Shown here: in pieces, positions 1,078 to 10,000 of the stretch
How the letters are laid out: every line of letters starts with the position of its first letter
How positions within the stretch are numbered: the stretch's first letter is position 1
Source of the DNA: a virus
Virus record (IMG/VR): IMGVR_UViG_3300025127_000243
Coordinates: 1 to 25,500 of that record
DNA length: 25,500 nucleotides
Reading direction: 5' to 3' (one strand)
Notes under the pieces: model-generated
Told to the model about the DNA's origin: nothing
The model's input: only the letters and a program-made list of their open reading frames with translations
Databases searched by the model: none
Translations under genes and position numbers: made by a program

Positions 1078-2589
1078 TTATATTATGTAGCTTTGCATTG
1101 GGTGAATAGGTTCGATGACATATAAGTTTTTGCGGGTTCGTGTGACCCCAACATAGAAAACACGATGTGTGTCGTCCGGGTTGTCTAAAAAATCTCTGTG
1201 TGCCGCGCCGCTTAAGTCGGTAAAGATAGCGACATTGTCCGCTTCTCCTCCCTTTGACCCGTGGATCGTGGATACTGCTATACGAGGCTTGGCGTTAAAC
1301 TTCTCGCCCCGTCGTAAAAGCGCGGTGATGTAAGCCCTGTCTCTTTCTGGCAACTTATCCATCGCGTCGTGCCAGATCATGTCTGTAGTGGCTTGAAGCC
1401 CCAGGTGCCGCGTCAGGTGCTCCATGTCGTACAAATCGTCATCATCAACGCCCGGAGCTTTTTTAAACCCTCGCTGTACGCGGTCTCCAACCGACATAAA
1501 ACTGTAAATAGCTTTGACGGCTTCACCTGTAATATGCTTGCCGTTTCGCAACTGCTCCCAGCCGTTAATCGCTAAACTGATTTTATCGCTAATAGATCGT
1601 CGGCCTTGGTAGGTAAAAAGATGACCGTCGTCTCGAAGCATACTGACCACGGGCGCAAGCATATATGCGCTCTGTGCTAATATAAGCCATGAGCCCTCAG
1701 TGACATCGAGATCCCAAATCGTTGCAAGATGTTCTACATGCCCACGCTCTTCGCGAGGCTTGTAGACTTTTGGAACACGGCGATCTATGCGATTGACGAC
1801 ACGTTCTGCCATAACGTGTACCTCGCCAGGGACACGATAGGATTGCTCTAGCACCTCGTAGCCGCCGTCTAGGTTGATAAACTGTTCCACATCAGCCCCT
1901 GCCCATCGGTAAATCGCTTGGTCATCATCGCCTGCACAAATCGTTCTCTCGCTGTTTTCTGCTATGATGTTTGCGACATCCCATTGTAAGGGAGATAAAT
2001 CTTGCGCCTCGTCAATAAACGAAATTAAAAGACGCGGGCACACATTCTCTTGCACAAAAACAGATAGCATGTCGGTGAAATCGTACACGTCCATTTGCTT
2101 TCGGTAGTTATCAAAGCCTCTCGCAACATACTCTAATGTTAGCCAGTCAATGTTTGTATGCGTGTCATCATACTGTTTTCGCAAAGAAACTTTACGCAAA
2201 CGCGCAAGGTTGATGAGGTTGATAAAAGGATTATTGTTTTTGCTCAGATCCTCCACGTCCTCAGGGTCAGAAGCTTTGCTATTACTTAATTCAATGCCAA
2301 GCTCGTTACTCAACTCTTCGTAATGCTCTTTTTGCATAATTTGTTCCTGGCGTATGCCAGATAATCGAAGCGCGAAAGAGTGTAGCGTTCTAAACCACGG
2401 TAAATCGTCCTCCGTTAAATTAAATCGTTTACAAGCACGTTCGATGGCCTCTCGACTCGCCTGTTTCGTAAAAGCAAAGTAGCCGATTAGTTTGGGGTCA
2501 ATACCCTCCTCCAAAGCGCGGTCAACGCGATCTAACAACGCCGTTGTCTTGCCTGTTCCGGGTGGCCCTAGTATTCTAAAAATACTCAA
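1078..2589 (-). CDS. UvrD/Rep-like superfamily 1 DNA helicase
   Basis: This 503-residue SF1A helicase has a full motif set. Walker A is GPPGTGKT (8-15), motif Ia is TLHSFA (68-73), Walker B is DEAQD (193-197), and motif III is AGDDDQAIYRWAGAD (219-233). Motif V lies around HGSKGGEADNV (443-453) and motif VI at VGVTRTR (480-486). The family unwinds DNA 3'-5' using ATP. At about 500 residues it is shorter than bacterial UvrD (about 720), so the 2B region is probably reduced. Its start overlaps the primase stop in an ATGA arrangement (2586-2589), so the two are translationally coupled and may act together at the fork. No DnaB- or gp4-like helicase is visible, so this could be the replicative helicase, although a repair or recombination role is equally typical of the family. 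Confidence 0.93.
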   Translation of the reverse strand: MSIFRILGPPGTGKTTALLDRVDRALEEGIDPKLIGYFAFTKQASREAIERACKRFNLTEDDLPWFRTLHSFALRLSGIRQEQIMQKEHYEELSNELGIELSNSKASDPEDVEDLSKNNNPFINLINLARLRKVSLRKQYDDTHTNIDWLTLEYVARGFDNYRKQMDVYDFTDMLSVFVQENVCPRLLISFIDEAQDLSPLQWDVANIIAENSERTICAGDDDQAIYRWAGADVEQFINLDGGYEVLEQSYRVPGEVHVMAERVVNRIDRRVPKVYKPREERGHVEHLATIWDLDVTEGSWLILAQSAYMLAPVVSMLRDDGHLFTYQGRRSISDKISLAINGWEQLRNGKHITGEAVKAIYSFMSVGDRVQRGFKKAPGVDDDDLYDMEHLTRHLGLQATTDMIWHDAMDKLPERDRAYITALLRRGEKFNAKPRIAVSTIHGSKGGEADNVAIFTDLSGAAHRDFLDNPDDTHRVFYVGVTRTRKNLYVIEPIHPMQSYII

Positions 2590-4121
2590 AACGGCACCTC
2601 ATGTTCTGACTTGAAATCAGGGGCGTCGATTTTTACTTCGTTGATGTCAAAAGCTGGTATTTCGTAAACCCGCACGGTTCTCTTTTTAATCTTGATAGCC
2701 GTACTTTGACCTCCGATATCGCGTAGACGTTGAGCTACCTGGTGTGTTTTGTAATCAAAAAATTTGTTTCGTTTTAAGAACTCCATCAGGTCTTTCAGCC
2801 TGAAATACGTCTTGCCGTCCTCTGTCCAAGGCTTTCGTAAAAGTATCTCTTCGCGGTCCCGTGCTTGCTGTTTATGAGAGGTAAACTCTTCTAAATAGTC
2901 ATAAAAGATCCCGTCAGTTGATGCGTCTTTGGCGACCTCGATAATGCTACTTTCGGTCTCTCTCATTTCTTTCATTAACGTGCTGATGCGCGTCTCCCAG
3001 ACAGGCTTTGTCAGCGTCAGCGGCATAAAGTTCAACTGTTCCATGCTCGCTTTTTGAAACGCGGGTTGGCTCAACAAACCATCGGTATCTAGCTCTAGCG
3101 GCTCACCATTTACGTCCAAAAACCAAACAGGCGGTGTCGAATTATACTTTCGCAAATTAGCCATGACGCTGTTATTAGCCCCGCCACCAATGCCGAACTT
3201 TCGCAGCATACAAAGTTGTTTATTACAGAAGGCGTTGATGGGGGCATCTGAGCATTTGTACATGTAGTCTTTTGTATTTAATTGTTTGACTACGGCGTTC
3301 ACCTCTGAAAGAGGCAGAGGCGAGGTAAAATAGAGCATGTTTGCTTGAAGTAATTTATCTTGCCAATCGTCAGGAAATGCTTTCTTGTAGAAAACGCCGT
3401 AAGAAAAAAGCGCGTTGTTGCGTGAGCCTTCGTCCACTTTGTTTTTAGATAAGGTATTCAAACAGGGTGGCCCGTCAGGCAGGGGGTCATCCACCCCAGA
3501 GATGGTCTGTTCTTGTTGTAAAGCTTTTATTTGTTCCGTGGTTCGCGAATGTTGGTCATAAAGCTCAAAAAACTCTTCCAGGGTTGCGCTTGTGCCGTCA
3601 TCTTTGATGGCGTATCGCAAGCCCTCTTCCGCATCAAAATACGGCAGGTTTAAGAAGTTACCTACGTCATCGCGTTCTAAATGCAGTTTGATTTGTTTTG
3701 GAAAAATCTCTGATCCGGTCAGCCCCAAGGTGGCGGCGATTTGTTGAAGCGCACGTTGCATGTCCTCTGCGCTTACCCATGTTTGGGCGAAGAGAAAACA
3801 ATGTGCCCCGCCGCTCTTAGAGCGACACACGACAAGCGGCAGTTTGAGTTTACGAATTTGTTCGACTAAAGCTTTGTGATCGAGTGGGTATTGATCGATG
3901 TCAATACACCCCCAAACCGACTGATTGTCTTCGTTAATAGGAATAATTCCTAAAGAGCGCGTACCGTCTAGGTGTTGTTTCCAGGTTTTCTCTGTGCGCG
4001 GCTCTCGAACGATAGCGGCTTTGCCTGTCGCTTTGCCATTGGCGGCTTTACCGTTTACGCGGTAGGTACCGTGCGCCAGCTTCAGTCCTGCGAAAATTCT
4101 CGCAAATTTCTTGATATCCAT
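2586..4121 (-). CDS. Archaeo-eukaryotic-type (AEP) primase, TOTE/PrimPol-like
   Basis: This 511-residue protein has an N-terminal AEP fold signature. The metal-binding DxD is in GCIDIDQY (D74, D76), the nucleotide-binding region is SKSGGAH (101-107, H107), and EIFPKQ (138-143) plus GNFLNLPYF (154-162) resemble AEP primases of the TOTE type and phage prim-pols. A later cysteine set, C220, C290, C299 and C304 (the last three in YKCSDAPINAFCNKQLC), looks like the metal-binding or PriCT-like region of phage primases. The C-terminal part (about 350-511) is charged and ends in a possible DNA-binding helical region. It would make primers, and some relatives also polymerise DNA. The gene follows the SSB gene after a terminator hairpin, and the bases before its ATG (TTTTTTAATC) contain no Shine-Dalgarno. 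The stop overlaps the helicase start by 4 bases. Confidence 0.85.
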   Translation of the reverse strand: MDIKKFARIFAGLKLAHGTYRVNGKAANGKATGKAAIVREPRTEKTWKQHLDGTRSLGIIPINEDNQSVWGCIDIDQYPLDHKALVEQIRKLKLPLVVCRSKSGGAHCFLFAQTWVSAEDMQRALQQIAATLGLTGSEIFPKQIKLHLERDDVGNFLNLPYFDAEEGLRYAIKDDGTSATLEEFFELYDQHSRTTEQIKALQQEQTISGVDDPLPDGPPCLNTLSKNKVDEGSRNNALFSYGVFYKKAFPDDWQDKLLQANMLYFTSPLPLSEVNAVVKQLNTKDYMYKCSDAPINAFCNKQLCMLRKFGIGGGANNSVMANLRKYNSTPPVWFLDVNGEPLELDTDGLLSQPAFQKASMEQLNFMPLTLTKPVWETRISTLMKEMRETESSIIEVAKDASTDGIFYDYLEEFTSHKQQARDREEILLRKPWTEDGKTYFRLKDLMEFLKRNKFFDYKTHQVAQRLRDIGGQSTAIKIKKRTVRVYEIPAFDINEVKIDAPDFKSEHEVPF

Positions 4122-4125
4122 GATT

Positions 4126-4153
4126 AAAAAAGGGGACGGCTTTCACCGTCCCC
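4126..4153 (-). terminator. Rho-independent terminator between SSB-like gene and primase gene
   Basis: On the minus strand an 8-bp perfect GC-rich stem, GGGGACGG / CCGTCCCC (4153-4146 and 4139-4132, six-base loop), is followed by six T residues (4131-4126). This is a canonical intrinsic terminator. It starts 8 bases after the SSB-like gene ends, and its T tract ends 4 bases before the primase ATG. It should reduce transcription of primase, helicase and polymerase relative to the two promoter-proximal genes, unless the phage uses antitermination or a further promoter not seen here. Confidence 0.88.
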
Positions 4154-4161
4154 GATCCAAA

Positions 4162-4959
4162 TCAGAAAGGAATGTCGTCGGAATCAATCGAAGGGGCGTC
4201 AACCTCCGAGGTATGTTTGACGTTAACATCGCCTTCTGAAACGGACTCGTTAAACTGCTTTGCCGCGGCGTAAAGAGCGGCATCACCCTCTTCCTCGCCA
4301 AGCAAACGCACCTTGGACATCTCCCAGCCGTGCCAAGAACCTTTACTATTCTCTTCGCCTAAAGTCTTTAGTCGATAAACATGACTAAAGCGCGGCGGTG
4401 TAAAAGGCCCGTTCGATCCTTGTAAGGTTGTCGAACTAATCATCGAGTTCCACTTGCGTGATTTCTTTAACTGTGTGGACTTCATCGCAACTAGCGCCCG
4501 TTCAAAGCCGCCATCCTCGTTCAAAACAAGAACAAAATGTTGGTGAGTTTCTTCCAGATAATGACCACTACCATCGAGTAAATAATCTTTGTTATCCTCC
4601 GAACTTCTTTCTACTTTCGGCATATCATCACCGGGCGCGTAAATTTGCACCGGAGCACCTGTGCCCTCACCTAATGGTGCCCACTGGATAAATCGACGCT
4701 GATAAGCCGCACTAATAACCTCAATTCCTTCTTTTCCCTTGTAAACCCGGTTACTTACGGTGTTGTAAATGTCGCCTTTTCTAGCTTCCTCAAGATTATC
4801 AAGCTCTCGCGACATACCTCCTAGTATTTTTAGAAACGGAAGCGCAAGGTCATCTTGAGACATGTTTTCCATGCCCTGACCAGCGTCCTGCTCAAACATC
4901 GATGGATTAAACGCAATTACGTTTGATTGCTCTTTTTTTGCTACTTTTTTACCAGCCAT
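4162..4959 (-). CDS. Single-stranded DNA-binding-like protein
   Basis: This 265-residue protein begins at ATG 4957-4959, preceded by GAGGGAG at 8-base spacing and one base after the upstream stop. A GTG start ten codons earlier (4989) keeps the frame but would overlap the upstream gene by 29 bases and lacks this ribosome site, so I reject it. The N-terminus is lysine-rich (MAGKKVAKKEQ). The middle is beta-rich with many aromatic residues (QRRFIQWAPLG, HQHFVLVLNEDGGF, WHGWEMSKVRLLG), as expected for an OB-fold DNA binder. The extreme C-terminus is acidic and ends DSDDIPF, the hallmark tip by which bacterial SSBs and T7 gp2.5-like proteins recruit partners. It probably coats single-stranded DNA at the fork and contacts polymerase or helicase. 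The assignment rests mainly on the C-terminal tip and operon position. A recombination mediator with a similar tail is the alternative. Confidence 0.72.
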   Translation of the reverse strand: MAGKKVAKKEQSNVIAFNPSMFEQDAGQGMENMSQDDLALPFLKILGGMSRELDNLEEARKGDIYNTVSNRVYKGKEGIEVISAAYQRRFIQWAPLGEGTGAPVQIYAPGDDMPKVERSSEDNKDYLLDGSGHYLEETHQHFVLVLNEDGGFERALVAMKSTQLKKSRKWNSMISSTTLQGSNGPFTPPRFSHVYRLKTLGEENSKGSWHGWEMSKVRLLGEEEGDAALYAAAKQFNESVSEGDVNVKHTSEVDAPSIDSDDIPF

Positions 4960-4960
4960 T

Positions 4961-5542
4961 TTATTTACTCCCTCTGTCAATTTTTGCACGTTGTCCTATG
5001 AATGCGCCAAACAATTCGGTGGGGAAATCGTCCCCGCTTTCAACGCGCTCTTTGATCCACGCTCTTAGGGTGACGTGGTGAACGCCTTGCTTTTCAGTTG
5101 TTTCAACGCCAATTTCTGCCGCAGCTTTTATAAAACTTGCCGCAGCTTCGTCTTCGCCCGCGCCAAACGCGGCTTTAACTTCATTTTTTATTATATCACC
5201 AAAGCCGTTTTCGCGTAACCAACCTAACGCAGTTTCGTGATTTGCCGCGGTGATGTTGCCCGAATAAATAGGTTTAACGCTTATTTTTGAGCCATCAGAT
5301 AATTCTACTTTTGACAAACCTATCTCCTGCATAAGAGCGGGTAGCTCTTGATCGGTTAAAGCAAGCAAGTCTTTCTTCGCTTGTTTGGCTTCCTCGTTTA
5401 ACCGTTCAAGCTCTTGTTCTTTAGCCTGAATTTTTCTTGAAATTGCGGCAACACTTTTTAAGTCACCGCTTCTAAGTTTATCGACGCCGTCTTGGATCTT
5501 ATCCTCATAGGCGTCCTCCATTTGTTTAAACAATTCGTTCAT
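4961..5542 (-). CDS. Coiled-coil phage early protein, function unknown
   Basis: This 193-residue protein is the first gene of the leftward replication operon. ATG at 5540-5542 is preceded by AGAGGAAA, a good ribosome site. Residues about 30-65 form a charged amphipathic helix (AISRKIQAKEQELERLNEEAK), a likely coiled coil. The remainder is a compact alpha/beta region with GWLRENGFGDIIKNEV and a C-terminal WIKERVESGDDFPTELFG. There is no catalytic motif, zinc site, membrane segment or signal. Its stop lies 1 base before the SSB-like gene start, and that gene's Shine-Dalgarno lies inside this gene's 3' end, so the two are coupled. Together they form the only transcript segment ahead of the operon terminator, so they should be made in the same high amount. 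A role as an SSB partner is possible but is inference from position only. Confidence 0.8.
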   Translation of the reverse strand: MNELFKQMEDAYEDKIQDGVDKLRSGDLKSVAAISRKIQAKEQELERLNEEAKQAKKDLLALTDQELPALMQEIGLSKVELSDGSKISVKPIYSGNITAANHETALGWLRENGFGDIIKNEVKAAFGAGEDEAAASFIKAAAEIGVETTEKQGVHHVTLRAWIKERVESGDDFPTELFGAFIGQRAKIDRGSK

Positions 5543-5563
5543 CGCGTTTCCTCTTTCGTGTTT

Positions 5564-5581
5564 AGCTGACGTTCGCCAGCT
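5564..5581 (-). promoter_or_regulatory. Hairpin in the leader of the leftward operon
   Basis: The minus-strand RNA would contain AGCTGGC-GAAC-GTCAGCT, a 7-bp stem with one G-U pair and a four-base loop. It sits between the predicted leftward transcription start (about 5589) and the ribosome site of the first gene. There is no T tract after it, so it is not an intrinsic terminator. It could stabilise the mRNA or be part of an operator. Function is inferred. Confidence 0.35.
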
Positions 5582-5584
5582 TAA

Positions 5585-5613
5585 TTGACACTACACATAT
5601 ATTCGCATATATA
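5585..5613 (+). promoter_or_regulatory. Sigma70-like promoter for the SNF2-family helicase gene
   Basis: A perfect -35 box TTGACA (5585-5590) is followed after 17 bases by TATATA (5608-5613). Transcription should start near 5620, giving a leader of about 20 bases before the AGGA ribosome site (5626-5629) and ATG at 5639. The spacing and hexamers fit the host housekeeping polymerase and suggest early expression. The first T of the -35 is also the first base of an in-frame TTG, which extends the open frame upstream but is unlikely to be used. Confidence 0.6.
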
Positions 5614-5624
5614 TAGCGTGTCAA
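5596..5624 (-). promoter_or_regulatory. Sigma70-like promoter for the leftward replication operon
   Basis: On the minus strand a perfect TTGACA lies at 5624-5619, followed after 17 bases by TATATG (5601-5596). Transcription should start near 5589 and yield a leader of about 47 bases before the first gene (ATG 5542). It is interleaved with the rightward promoter: each -10 lies within the other promoter's spacer region. The -10 is weaker than consensus at its last base. Confidence 0.55.
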
Positions 5625-5638
5625 CAGGAAAATATAAT

Positions 5639-7081
5639 ATGTTCGATTTTAAAACAAAGCCGTATCAACACCAACTGACAGCCTTGGAAGAGTCGTGGTC
5701 CGCGAACTTCTTTGCGCTTTTTATGGAAATGGGCACCGGAAAGTCAAAGGTAGCGCTCGATACTATCGCCACCCTTTATAAAGAACAGAGATTAAACGCG
5801 GCACTAATCGTTGCACCGAAAGGCGTCTACTCAAATTGGGTTGAGGGTGAGATCCCAACGCATTTGCCTGACGACATACCTATTTTAATGTCTCAGTGGC
5901 GACCCGTTCAATCAAAGTCTTTTGCAGAAGAGATGAAGATCTTGGTTTCTGATCCATTTGACGGCCTTAAAATATTTGTTGTCAACGTCGAGGCGTTTTC
6001 AACACCCAGAGGCACAAAAGCTGCCGCTGCATTCTTATCTAAGAACCCTGAGAACATAATGATCGTTGACGAGAGCACAACCATTAAGAACAGAAAAGCC
6101 TTACGGACTAAAAACATCATGAAATGCGGTGACTTAACTAAATATCGCCGTATCTTGACAGGATCGCCCATTACGAAAAGCCCAATGGACTTGTTCTCGC
6201 AAGCTCAGTTCCTATCCCCGCAGGCGTTAAATTTTAAAAGTTACTATAGCTTTCAAAATAGATACGCGAACATCGTGCGGCGCACCATGGGGGCCCGACA
6301 ATTCCAAGAGATTGTTAGTTACAAGAGACTGGACGAGCTAAATGAAAAGCTCGAACGCTTTAGCTACCGCGTTCTAAAAGACGAGTGCTTGGATTTACCG
6401 GGCAAGATTTATTTAAAACGCAACGTGGAGCTTACGGATGAGCAGGCGCGAGTTTACAAACAAATGAAGAAACTCGCTTTAGCGCAACTGGATACCGGGG
6501 AGCTTGCAACGACGCAGAGTGTTTTAACCCAGATTATGCGACTGCAACAAATATGTTGTGGGTTTTTTCAACCCGACGACAGTGAAATAGAAGAGTTACC
6601 CTCTAAGCGCATGGATGCGCTGCTAGATGTCATCGAAGAAGCGCAAGGCAAAGTTATCATTTGGGCGTCGTGGACACATGACATTCGTAAAATTACAAAG
6701 GCTTTGGAAGATCGTTTCGGGTCTGACGCGGTTGCCGCATATTTCGGTGAGACAAAACAAGACGAGCGACAAGATATTGTTAATCGTTTCCAAGACAAAG
6801 ATGACCCGTTACGATTTTTTGTCGGACAACCGCGCACCGGGGGTTTTGGTCTGACGCTTACAGCCGCTAATACTGTAATTTATTACAGCAATCAATACGA
6901 CTTAGAAATACGTTTGCAAAGCGAGGACCGTGCACACAGAATCGGGCAACGCAATGCGGTAACCTATGTCGATTTGATTGCGCCCAAGACCGTGGATGAG
7001 CAAGTCATCAAAGCTCTAAAACAAAAGATGGTCCTGAGCGGGGCCGTCCTAAACGAAGAAGTGCGTAAGTGGCTTACCTAG
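5639..7081 (+). CDS. SNF2-family (superfamily 2) DNA helicase/translocase
   Basis: The start is ATG 5639, with AGGA nine bases upstream. An in-frame TTG at 5585 is part of the promoter -35 box and is rejected. In the resulting 480-residue protein, a Q-like motif (YQHQLTALEESW, 9-20) leads into Walker A MEMGTGKS (29-36). The DExx box reads DEST (144-147), motif III is TGSP (174-177), and helicase domain C ends with the SNF2-type motif VI QSEDRAHRIGQ (427-437). The family translocates on double-stranded DNA using ATP to remodel protein-DNA complexes. Phage members are common in early regions, where roles in replication or recombination or displacement of host DNA-binding proteins are suspected. 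It is the only plus-strand gene in the window, has its own promoter, and ends 3 bases from the converging virion operon with no clear terminator between. Confidence 0.92.
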   Translation: MFDFKTKPYQHQLTALEESWSANFFALFMEMGTGKSKVALDTIATLYKEQRLNAALIVAPKGVYSNWVEGEIPTHLPDDIPILMSQWRPVQSKSFAEEMKILVSDPFDGLKIFVVNVEAFSTPRGTKAAAAFLSKNPENIMIVDESTTIKNRKALRTKNIMKCGDLTKYRRILTGSPITKSPMDLFSQAQFLSPQALNFKSYYSFQNRYANIVRRTMGARQFQEIVSYKRLDELNEKLERFSYRVLKDECLDLPGKIYLKRNVELTDEQARVYKQMKKLALAQLDTGELATTQSVLTQIMRLQQICCGFFQPDDSEIEELPSKRMDALLDVIEEAQGKVIIWASWTHDIRKITKALEDRFGSDAVAAYFGETKQDERQDIVNRFQDKDDPLRFFVGQPRTGGFGLTLTAANTVIYYSNQYDLEIRLQSEDRAHRIGQRNAVTYVDLIAPKTVDEQVIKALKQKMVLSGAVLNEEVRKWLT

Positions 7082-7084
7082 AAG

Positions 7085-10000
7085 TCACCCGCGTTGTTTA
7101 AAAAAGGTCCCAATCCCACCACCGTTGACCGCGCCGCCTTTAGCCCCAAGTGCAGGACGAGCCAGCATATCTTGCGGGCCAAAAGCAAACGCGGCACGAG
7201 CCGGATCGATGGGACCGCCACCCAGGGGTGGTCTAGGTGGCGGGGCGACCGCGGCTACCTGTCTTGGCGAAACAGGTAGCGGGGTGGTAGCAGATGTAGT
7301 GGGAGGCTTATCCGCTACCACCTCCGGGACAGGGGTAGCATCTAATAATGCTACCTCGTCATTTTCGTTTTCGTCCTCTTCTACGCCAGAGGGTAAAATA
7401 TCTATTTCCTCTGTACCTGTTTTAATCGCCGCAGGTAGACCTCTTCGTGCAACTGCAATTCTTGATTCCAGTAGTATATTTCTGGCAATTTCTTTGGCAT
7501 TTTCCGTTAAAGGTTTCGAGTCAGGTCCTTCTGTTTGTCTAATGACCCTCATTATGTAACCTAATTTTGCGGGGTTAGAAAATAACTCTAAAAAGCCGTC
7601 TGCTCTTTTGCCGACGTCGCCATTAATAAAAACATCGTCTCCAATAGCGGCACCTGCTGTTCCTATCTGTAATTTAGCCGTGGTGCCTGACGTTAAACCA
7701 GGTAGCAAATTTGTTATTTTATCAACAAAATTAGTGAAGATCACGTTTCCCGCAATACGAGCAGACATACGCTTTATTACCCCGGGCCTCTCTCCGAGAA
7801 TAGAGGCCTGCTCGCCCCCAAAATTGTCCCTTAAATTTTTAATACTTTGCTTGATATTATCTAATTCTTGTTTACTAGCTAATCCATTATCAATTAAAAA
7901 ATCAGCAATGGGAACTTGCCGTATTTCTCTTTTGATATTTCTATTTGGATCTGTCTGAAACAATATTTCAGAAAAAACTTCAAAATTTATTCCTTGTTTA
8001 CTGTTTTCCCCCGCTAGATCCTTAGCGTAGTCTAAGACCAAACTTTTTAAACCTTGTTTTGCCTCATTAACAATTTGTGTATTAAGGTCGTCTACCTGAG
8101 ATTGACTTAAGCCATCAATATTTAAGTTTTCTACAATACCCGTAGGAGCAAGCTCATTATCTTGAATAGCTTTTAAAAAACCACGAGGATCCTGTTTAAT
8201 CCTATCTTCCATTGCTCTAATCGGGTTCATTAATGTATCAAAAGCTCTTTTACCCCCAGTGACTCTTCTTCCGCTTAATCCGCTGTTAAGGAGAGATAAA
8301 AAGTCTTGATTGTTTTTAGATTTTGGGTCGTTTGCAAAAACTGTCCAAAGCTGTTGCTGCTTAAACTTTTTATATTCATCTTTAAGGTCTAAAACTATTT
8401 TTTCTGCGTCACCCGCACGATCTGCAATTTCTCGAAATTTTCTACCTATCTCTGGAACTAAATCAAATAATTTACCTTCGTTCCCATCTGGACTCGAATT
8501 ATCTTCAACAAGTTGTTTTAACCTAGAGGGAGAAATGTTTAAAACGCCATCCGCAGAAAAAGCTTGTTTTGTTGGTGTTTCAAAAGTAAGAGCCGTTTGA
8601 GGATCTGTGCTTGAACTAACAGGCGTTTTTGTTGCCGCCTCCAAAACACTGATGATCTGAGATCGGACACTTTGCGGTGCCGTATCCGGAACAACCACGT
8701 CCTTAAGTATGCCTACGTAAGAGGGATCTCCCTCTCCTAAAGTTATAGACTGACCCCCGCGAATAGGAATAACTGTGCCCATAGGGTCCCGCCCAAACTT
8801 CTCCACTCTTTGCAGATCAAGTATTTTTGTAGAGGTAACGTCTCCGTTTAATATTGAAAGTTCTTTTAAGATTAAATCAACAGGTGTTGCGGAACTGTCT
8901 TGGTCCATACGATAAAATCTACCAACAAGCCCTTTTTTTACCACCTCTTTGTACGCTCTATAATAAGCGTTAGCCGCACCTAAACGATTAAGAACCGTTT
9001 CGTTAATAGGATCTCCTGTTTTAGTTACCCTGTTTATACCTTCAGGCGCCATTAACACTTTATCCGTGAGAAGTCCCTCTAATTGCGAGGCCCTTGCCTT
9101 TACCACATCATTGACATTAACATCCCTAGATACGGCCCTTAAATCTTTTACAATATCGTTTATGTCATTATACTCAACTTCAAAGTCAGCTTCACGCCCG
9201 GTGTCTACTGCTTTTTGTTGTTTTGAGTAAGCTAAAAGATCTTTAAGGGCTCTGTCATAAACAGGTTGCCCGGTTTTCCTCATAGAAAAACCCCTAATGT
9301 TAGAGCGCAAAAAATCTTCATCAAGAATAAATCTGTTTTGGTCATCAAAAACTAATATATGATCTGGAACATCCTTATAAAGGCGGTTTGCATTATCCTT
9401 AAACTTTGTATTTAAATCTCTCAAACGAGTAATAAGAAGTTCTGCGTACCGTCTATCTGTGCCGCGCTCCGGATTTATTCTTTTAAAAGCTTGAGTTAAC
9501 TTAGCAACTCCCTCCGCAAGTTGTTTTTTCATACTCACTTCTTCTAGATATTGATTAAAATCTACAGCAAGTTTGTATCCAAGTTCTTTATCTTGAAGCG
9601 CTACTCTATTTATACCACTTACAATTTTATTAACTTCTAAATCAACGACTTTTTGTTGAGCTTCATCAAAGTCGCCGCCAAATTTTTTAACTTGATCTTT
9701 TATTTGAGATAAGATGGGATTTTTAAACAAAGGTCTTAATTGTTCCGCAGTGGGTTCCGTCCCCTCTTTAAAAGAGTCGGCCCCTAATTCTTTTTCAATT
9801 ATACTTATTTCTTCCTCTGAATAATTTCCCGCTCGTAACTTATCAATTACGGTTGCCGCCGCACCTCTTTGGGCTGATCGGGCCCTAACATTTGCTGCCG
9901 CTGTGAGGTAATCAACTTGTTTAAATTTTTTCGCACCTTCTCCGGCCCCCCTCATACGCGAAACTTCTTCTGGTATGCCTTTTATCGCTTTGGTAAAAAA

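Follow-up and report, generated by a model that had tools for sequence, protein, structure and literature searches.

Predicted overlapping divergent promoters with symmetric -35 boxes at a conserved viral gene junction

Introduction

Overlapping divergent promoters are already known. Warman, Grainger and colleagues described bidirectional promoters of E. coli and Salmonella, in which RNA polymerase binds either way, one at a time, to a short pseudo-symmetric sequence and produces divergent transcripts (PMC12825309, PMC10268837). The symmetric element of these promoters is a shared -10 box, and the two starts, which flank this box or lie within it, are typically 10, 18 or 23 bp apart (PMC12825309, PMC10268837). 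Basal bidirectional promoters in E. coli lack the strength for the two directions to compete, and competition occurs only with one strong direction (PMC12825309). The Pc and Pr promoters of plasmid pLS20 are also divergent and overlapping, and polymerase occupancy blocks the other direction; this system combines unequal promoter strengths with the regulator RcoLS20, operators and looping (PMC4207663). At the RNA level, stem-loops of the ompA/papA type, located a few bases from the 5' end, stabilise bacterial mRNAs (PMC3997798).

Here we analyse a site in the virus record IMGVR_UViG_3300025127_000243. The whole stretch of 25.5 kb (hereafter the window) is possibly a partial genome. Its source is probably a marine phage, and no DNA similarity to phage records was found for it.

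Results

The site and its promoter boxes

The site at 5585-5624 reads TTGACACTACACATATATTCGCATATATATAGCGTGTCAA, a quasi-palindrome that contains both overlapping promoters. Its 7-bp ends, TTGACAC and GTGTCAA, are exact inverted copies of each other. The helicase promoter on the + strand has a -35 box TTGACA at 5585-5590 and, after a 17-bp spacer, a -10 box TATATA at 5608-5613, with a predicted start at about G5620. The leftward promoter on the - strand has a -35 box TTGACA at 5619-5624, read from 5624 to 5619, and a -10 box TATATG at 5596-5601, again with a 17-bp spacer, and its predicted start is at about G5589. Boxes at 16-18 bp are thus present on both strands and overlap, as in overlapping divergent sigma70-type promoters. 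The original prediction had drawn attention to these inverted ends, the perfect -35 boxes and, on each strand, a TATA-type box at a 17-base spacing, all of which the sequence confirms. It had also placed the two promoters face to face; the coordinates reject this convergent geometry, since the predicted starts lead the transcripts apart, rightward from 5620 and leftward from 5589, and the promoters are therefore divergent and back-to-back. The AT-rich centre holds the two -10 boxes next to each other, 6 bp apart and without overlap, and each -35 box coincides with the predicted start of the opposite promoter.

Both -10 boxes in the window deviate from TATAAT: only 4 of the 6 bases match and the T at -7 is missing, which is why a standard consensus promoter scan omits both promoters. 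In Alphaproteobacteria, most promoters lack this T (PMC8407463), a rule that may not suit the host of the window; the hosts of cultured relatives are SAR11 (PMC12753301). There are 16 copies of TTGACA in the window, and these two are the only ones with a TATA-type box at 17 bp. The single TTGAC..GTCAA pair found within the window, against 0.41 expected, is unremarkable alone, and the significance of the site comes from its conservation in relatives rather than from window counts alone.

Gene setting

All evident genes in the window run leftward, with the SNF2-family helicase gene (5639-7081, + strand), the rightward target, as the sole exception. On the - strand, the first leftward gene is a Pam3 gp33-like gene (DUF7307; 4961-5542) and the second is a Pam3 gp34-like gene (4162-4959). 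A TOTE-type primase gene (2586-4121, - strand) lies beyond a terminator and is followed by genes for a UvrD helicase and then a DNA polymerase I-type protein, the latter assigned by its position and by comparison with DSL-LC04. The SNF2-family helicase protein is 54% identical to that of 023Pt_psg01 (psg01), 53% to that of DSL-LC04, and 47% and 45% to those of the pelagiphages HTVC027P and HTVC023P. Most genes in psg01 are co-directional too, with the helicase among the few exceptions. HTVC027P is without an RNA polymerase of its own and uses that of the host (PMC12753301). At the far side of the window's helicase gene, its end lies 4 bp from the end of a convergent structural gene (7081-7085). 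This leaves no room for a terminator between the two genes, and antisense transcription into the helicase gene is possible.

The terminator, in the gp34/primase gap (4132-4153, - strand), is of the intrinsic type, with a strong hairpin and a T run. In a crude scan, 25 of 82 relatives had a terminator-like hairpin at roughly this position, mostly of different sequence. Given a terminator after gp34, the leftward promoter probably serves mainly gp33-gp34, and the primase and the genes beyond it probably need read-through or another promoter. The terminator would limit how far transcription runs on into the genes for the primase, UvrD and the polymerase, which suggests that gp33-gp34 is a separate, attenuated unit. 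The replication operon had been proposed as the leftward target; what stands of this proposal is a leftward gp33-gp34 unit with the primase reached by read-through, and the terminator after gp34 speaks against the whole operon.

Conservation in relatives

Two helicase scans of viral contigs, four phage records, two gp33-derived loci and the window together gave 115 loci, which were reduced to 92 non-redundant loci at 95% identity. For each we searched for the best TTGACA/TGTCAA pair at most 250 bp upstream of the helicase, with dinucleotide shuffles as the control. The arms matched at at least 11 of 12 bases in 51 of the 92 loci (0.9% in shuffles) and at all 12 in 32 (0.04% in shuffles); because the loci were picked by similarity to the window's helicase, these dyad frequencies are not those of all phages. 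Arm conservation in related phages had been set beforehand as a check on the site, and it is far above that in shuffles.

With a 20-base degenerate pattern from the window's clade, we scanned the whole viral collection and obtained 87 matches, comprising 39 different sequences. A gp33 homologue adjoins every one of the 87, and the helicase is on the opposite side in most of them, where the contig continues. We also observed four loci (L131, L172, L182 and L194) with the dyad and gp33 present and with no helicase homologue in the stretch examined (at most 1.8 kb; ~0.9 kb in L131), where the rightward slot may hold another gene. Dozens of related phages conserve the site at one gene junction, and it is therefore probably a real shared promoter and neither a coincidence nor a place where a regulator protein lands.

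On the helicase tree, loci with the dyad fall into two separate parts: one has lengths of 40-41 bp, the other contains most of those of 36-38 bp, and dyad-less clades lie between them. It was not scored in 39 of the 92 loci and is therefore not indispensable to the gene junction. In several non-dyad loci, including HTVC027P (L036/L037) and DSL-LC04 (L035), gp33 and the helicase are separated by an extra gene. The 36-38 bp clade has extra sequence between these genes too, yet keeps the dyad. HTVC027P apparently has a separate promoter for each direction, and an intact dyad was found in no cultured relative among those checked. One clade without a TTGACA/TGTCAA dyad upstream of the helicase (L079, L080, L081, L084, L094, L113 and L116) seemingly has another overlapping arrangement, with TTGAC[AT] rightward and TTGCAT leftward. 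The predicted starts in 8 no-dyad loci are 21 bp apart, nearer to the shared -10 type.

Promoters or operator

The arm-to-arm length varies between clades from 36 to 41 bp, and the distance from -35 box to TATA is ~16-17 bp on both strands and in both length classes (z = 11.2, 11.6, 6.4 and 3.9 in the four strand-by-class sets). The spacing register in the AT-rich core is partly ambiguous because of TATA repeats; it reads as 16, 17 or 19 bp in some relatives, and a 19-bp spacing scores about equally in two of the four sets. Four loci (L001-L004) have TTGACA-16-TATAAT rightward. When the best promoter on each strand was sought by an independent scan, the predicted starts lay 28-37 bp apart in 53 of 53 dyad loci, and the scores (11.1 and 10.4) were well above those of shuffles (~6); like the box spacing, this favours promoters.

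Exact inverted arms could instead form the operator of a dimeric regulator, from the phage or the host, which would bind the two TTGAC arms and switch or repress both genes. The narrow range of arm length within a clade (40-41 or 36-38 bp) is consistent with such an operator, as is the extra inner symmetry of a few sequences, such as L015 and seven 38-bp sequences in which it is somewhat greater. A constant arm spacing across relatives was not found: it is 36-38 bp in one clade and 40-41 bp in another, so that the arm centres shift by up to 5 bp. In the 41-bp class, the largest, the halves apart from the arms are no more alike than halves taken from different sequences, the small classes being less clear; with no support from this cross-sequence control, we rejected an extended operator palindrome. 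The arms are also exactly the -35 consensus. The site is single-copy in the window and does not occur elsewhere in psg01, and Pfam recognised no DNA-binding regulator among the 20 proteins scanned from the window, which may be a partial genome. An operator of this kind is unlikely, and the single dimeric regulator originally proposed for the site finds no support in these observations.

It is somewhat less likely still that only one promoter works, with the other -35/-10 pair arising as a by-product of the AT-rich, near-symmetric core. TATA-type cores are inherently near-symmetric (PMC10268837), and of the two -10 boxes in the window's clade it is the rightward that comes nearer to consensus. 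A second TTGACA would not persist in a by-product, whereas TTGAC is present on both strands in 36 of 36 sequences of the 40-41 bp class and TTGACA on the - strand in 16 of 16 of the shorter class; these sequences were selected on arm matches, and the excess is shown separately by the comparison with shuffles. In addition, a gene start is faced on both strands and the leader stem-loop (below) covaries. That the site is a replication origin or a DNA-structural element and not a promoter is highly improbable: an AT-rich dyad does adjoin replication genes, and the HTVC027P and HTVC023P records are opened near this junction, maybe as mere convention, but the GC skew changes only with the coding strand at the helicase and has no origin-like turn, the interior is not palindromic, and the conserved positions are explained by the -35/-10 spacing.

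A predicted stem-loop in the leftward leader

Just left of the dyad, at the predicted 5' end of the leftward transcript, is a predicted stem-loop of 7 bp with the loop GAAC (5564-5581, - strand). In an alignment of 38 leaders from the window and its relatives (A3), 87.5% of the pair cells are standard pairs, compared with at most 64% when the stem is slid, and double changes occur in 29 cells versus 7.6 in shuffles; the window's row is off by one base in this alignment, which lowers rather than raises the pairing figures. Leaders folded individually give similar hairpins. The conserved, covarying stem a few bases from the predicted 5' end is what is expected of a 5'-terminal mRNA stem-loop. 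Its provisional assignment to the leftward RNA draws on where the genes lie, on the predicted start and on loops of the GAAA/GACA type; the asymmetry of G.U versus A.C wobbles upon folding gave no clear proof of the RNA strand.

Most relatives have AA at the base of the stem, the complement of the TT in the -35 box of the helicase promoter, so that one sequence has both uses. The stem in the window begins four bases further on than in most relatives. No second copy was found in the window with the leader model. The only match to a known RNA family, Rfam RF01694, fell below threshold (23.4 bits, cutoff 43, E 0.11) and was rejected as chance. An A-C-G-A-A stretch, at 5551-5565 (- strand) in the window and in the aligned leaders, is common to most relatives and lies after the stem-loop, just before the gp33 ribosome-binding site.

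Discussion

The boxes, their spacing and their conservation support the original prediction of two promoters overlapping within 40 bases at the SNF2-helicase/gp33 junction. Judged from sequence, the site probably comprises two fully overlapping divergent host sigma70-type promoters, a shared polymerase site that would fire either way. RNA polymerase bound in one orientation would start the SNF2-helicase mRNA rightward at ~5620, and in the other it would start the gp33-gp34 mRNA leftward at ~5589. Both promoters are expected to fire. Their complete overlap suggests on steric grounds that two polymerases could not bind at once (PMC12825309, PMC4207663), in which case the transcript ratio could be set without any regulator. 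Mutual exclusion of the two directions is therefore plausible. A regulated switch is unsupported, as nothing that we found favours one. Since competition in E. coli needs a strong direction, the importance of exclusion at this site would depend on promoter strength.

The -35 boxes may have a second use. Leftward, one would contribute to the base of the leader stem-loop, and rightward, the other would lie beside the helicase ribosome-binding site; in many relatives the leftward -35 arm runs straight into that ribosome-binding site (TGTCAAGGAG). The leader stem-loop would stabilise the leftward mRNA or tune its translation. Tentatively, a widespread phage lineage may have kept a regulator-free, direction-choosing promoter for its overlap, with each -35 box doubling in the 5' region of the opposite transcript and exclusion fixing, as soon as infection begins, the ratio of helicase to gp33-gp34.

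The site offers a base-level prediction of transcription starts at one junction. Its natural variants, 36-41 bp long and with or without the dyad, allow selection for polymerase exclusion at overlapping promoters to be tested. A conserved leader RNA and a terminator split the replication genes into the gp33-gp34 unit and a downstream unit. We found no description of the promoters of this phage group in the limited literature searched, and the main text of the HTVC027P transcriptome paper reports neither start sites nor per-gene values at the junction (PMC12753301).

The window site resembles the bidirectional promoters of E. coli and Salmonella in its short pseudo-symmetric sequence, its predicted use by one polymerase at a time in either orientation, and its divergent transcripts. 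It differs in that the symmetric element is two consensus -35 boxes and the predicted starts are 31 bp apart; the -10 boxes, at 5596-5601 and 5608-5613, are separate, which places the site outside the shared -10 definition of Warman and colleagues. Like pLS20 Pc/Pr, it has overlapping divergent promoters at which occupancy in one direction would block the other, and no counterpart to the pLS20 regulator or operators was found here. The predicted leader stem-loop is close to the 5' end as in the ompA/papA type, with a putative effect on decay, and differs in that its base overlaps the opposite promoter's -35 box in most relatives. What is new is the form, in which the symmetry resides in two consensus -35 boxes, the -10 boxes are separate and a leader stem-loop is built onto one -35 box, together with the conservation of this form at one gene junction in a lineage.
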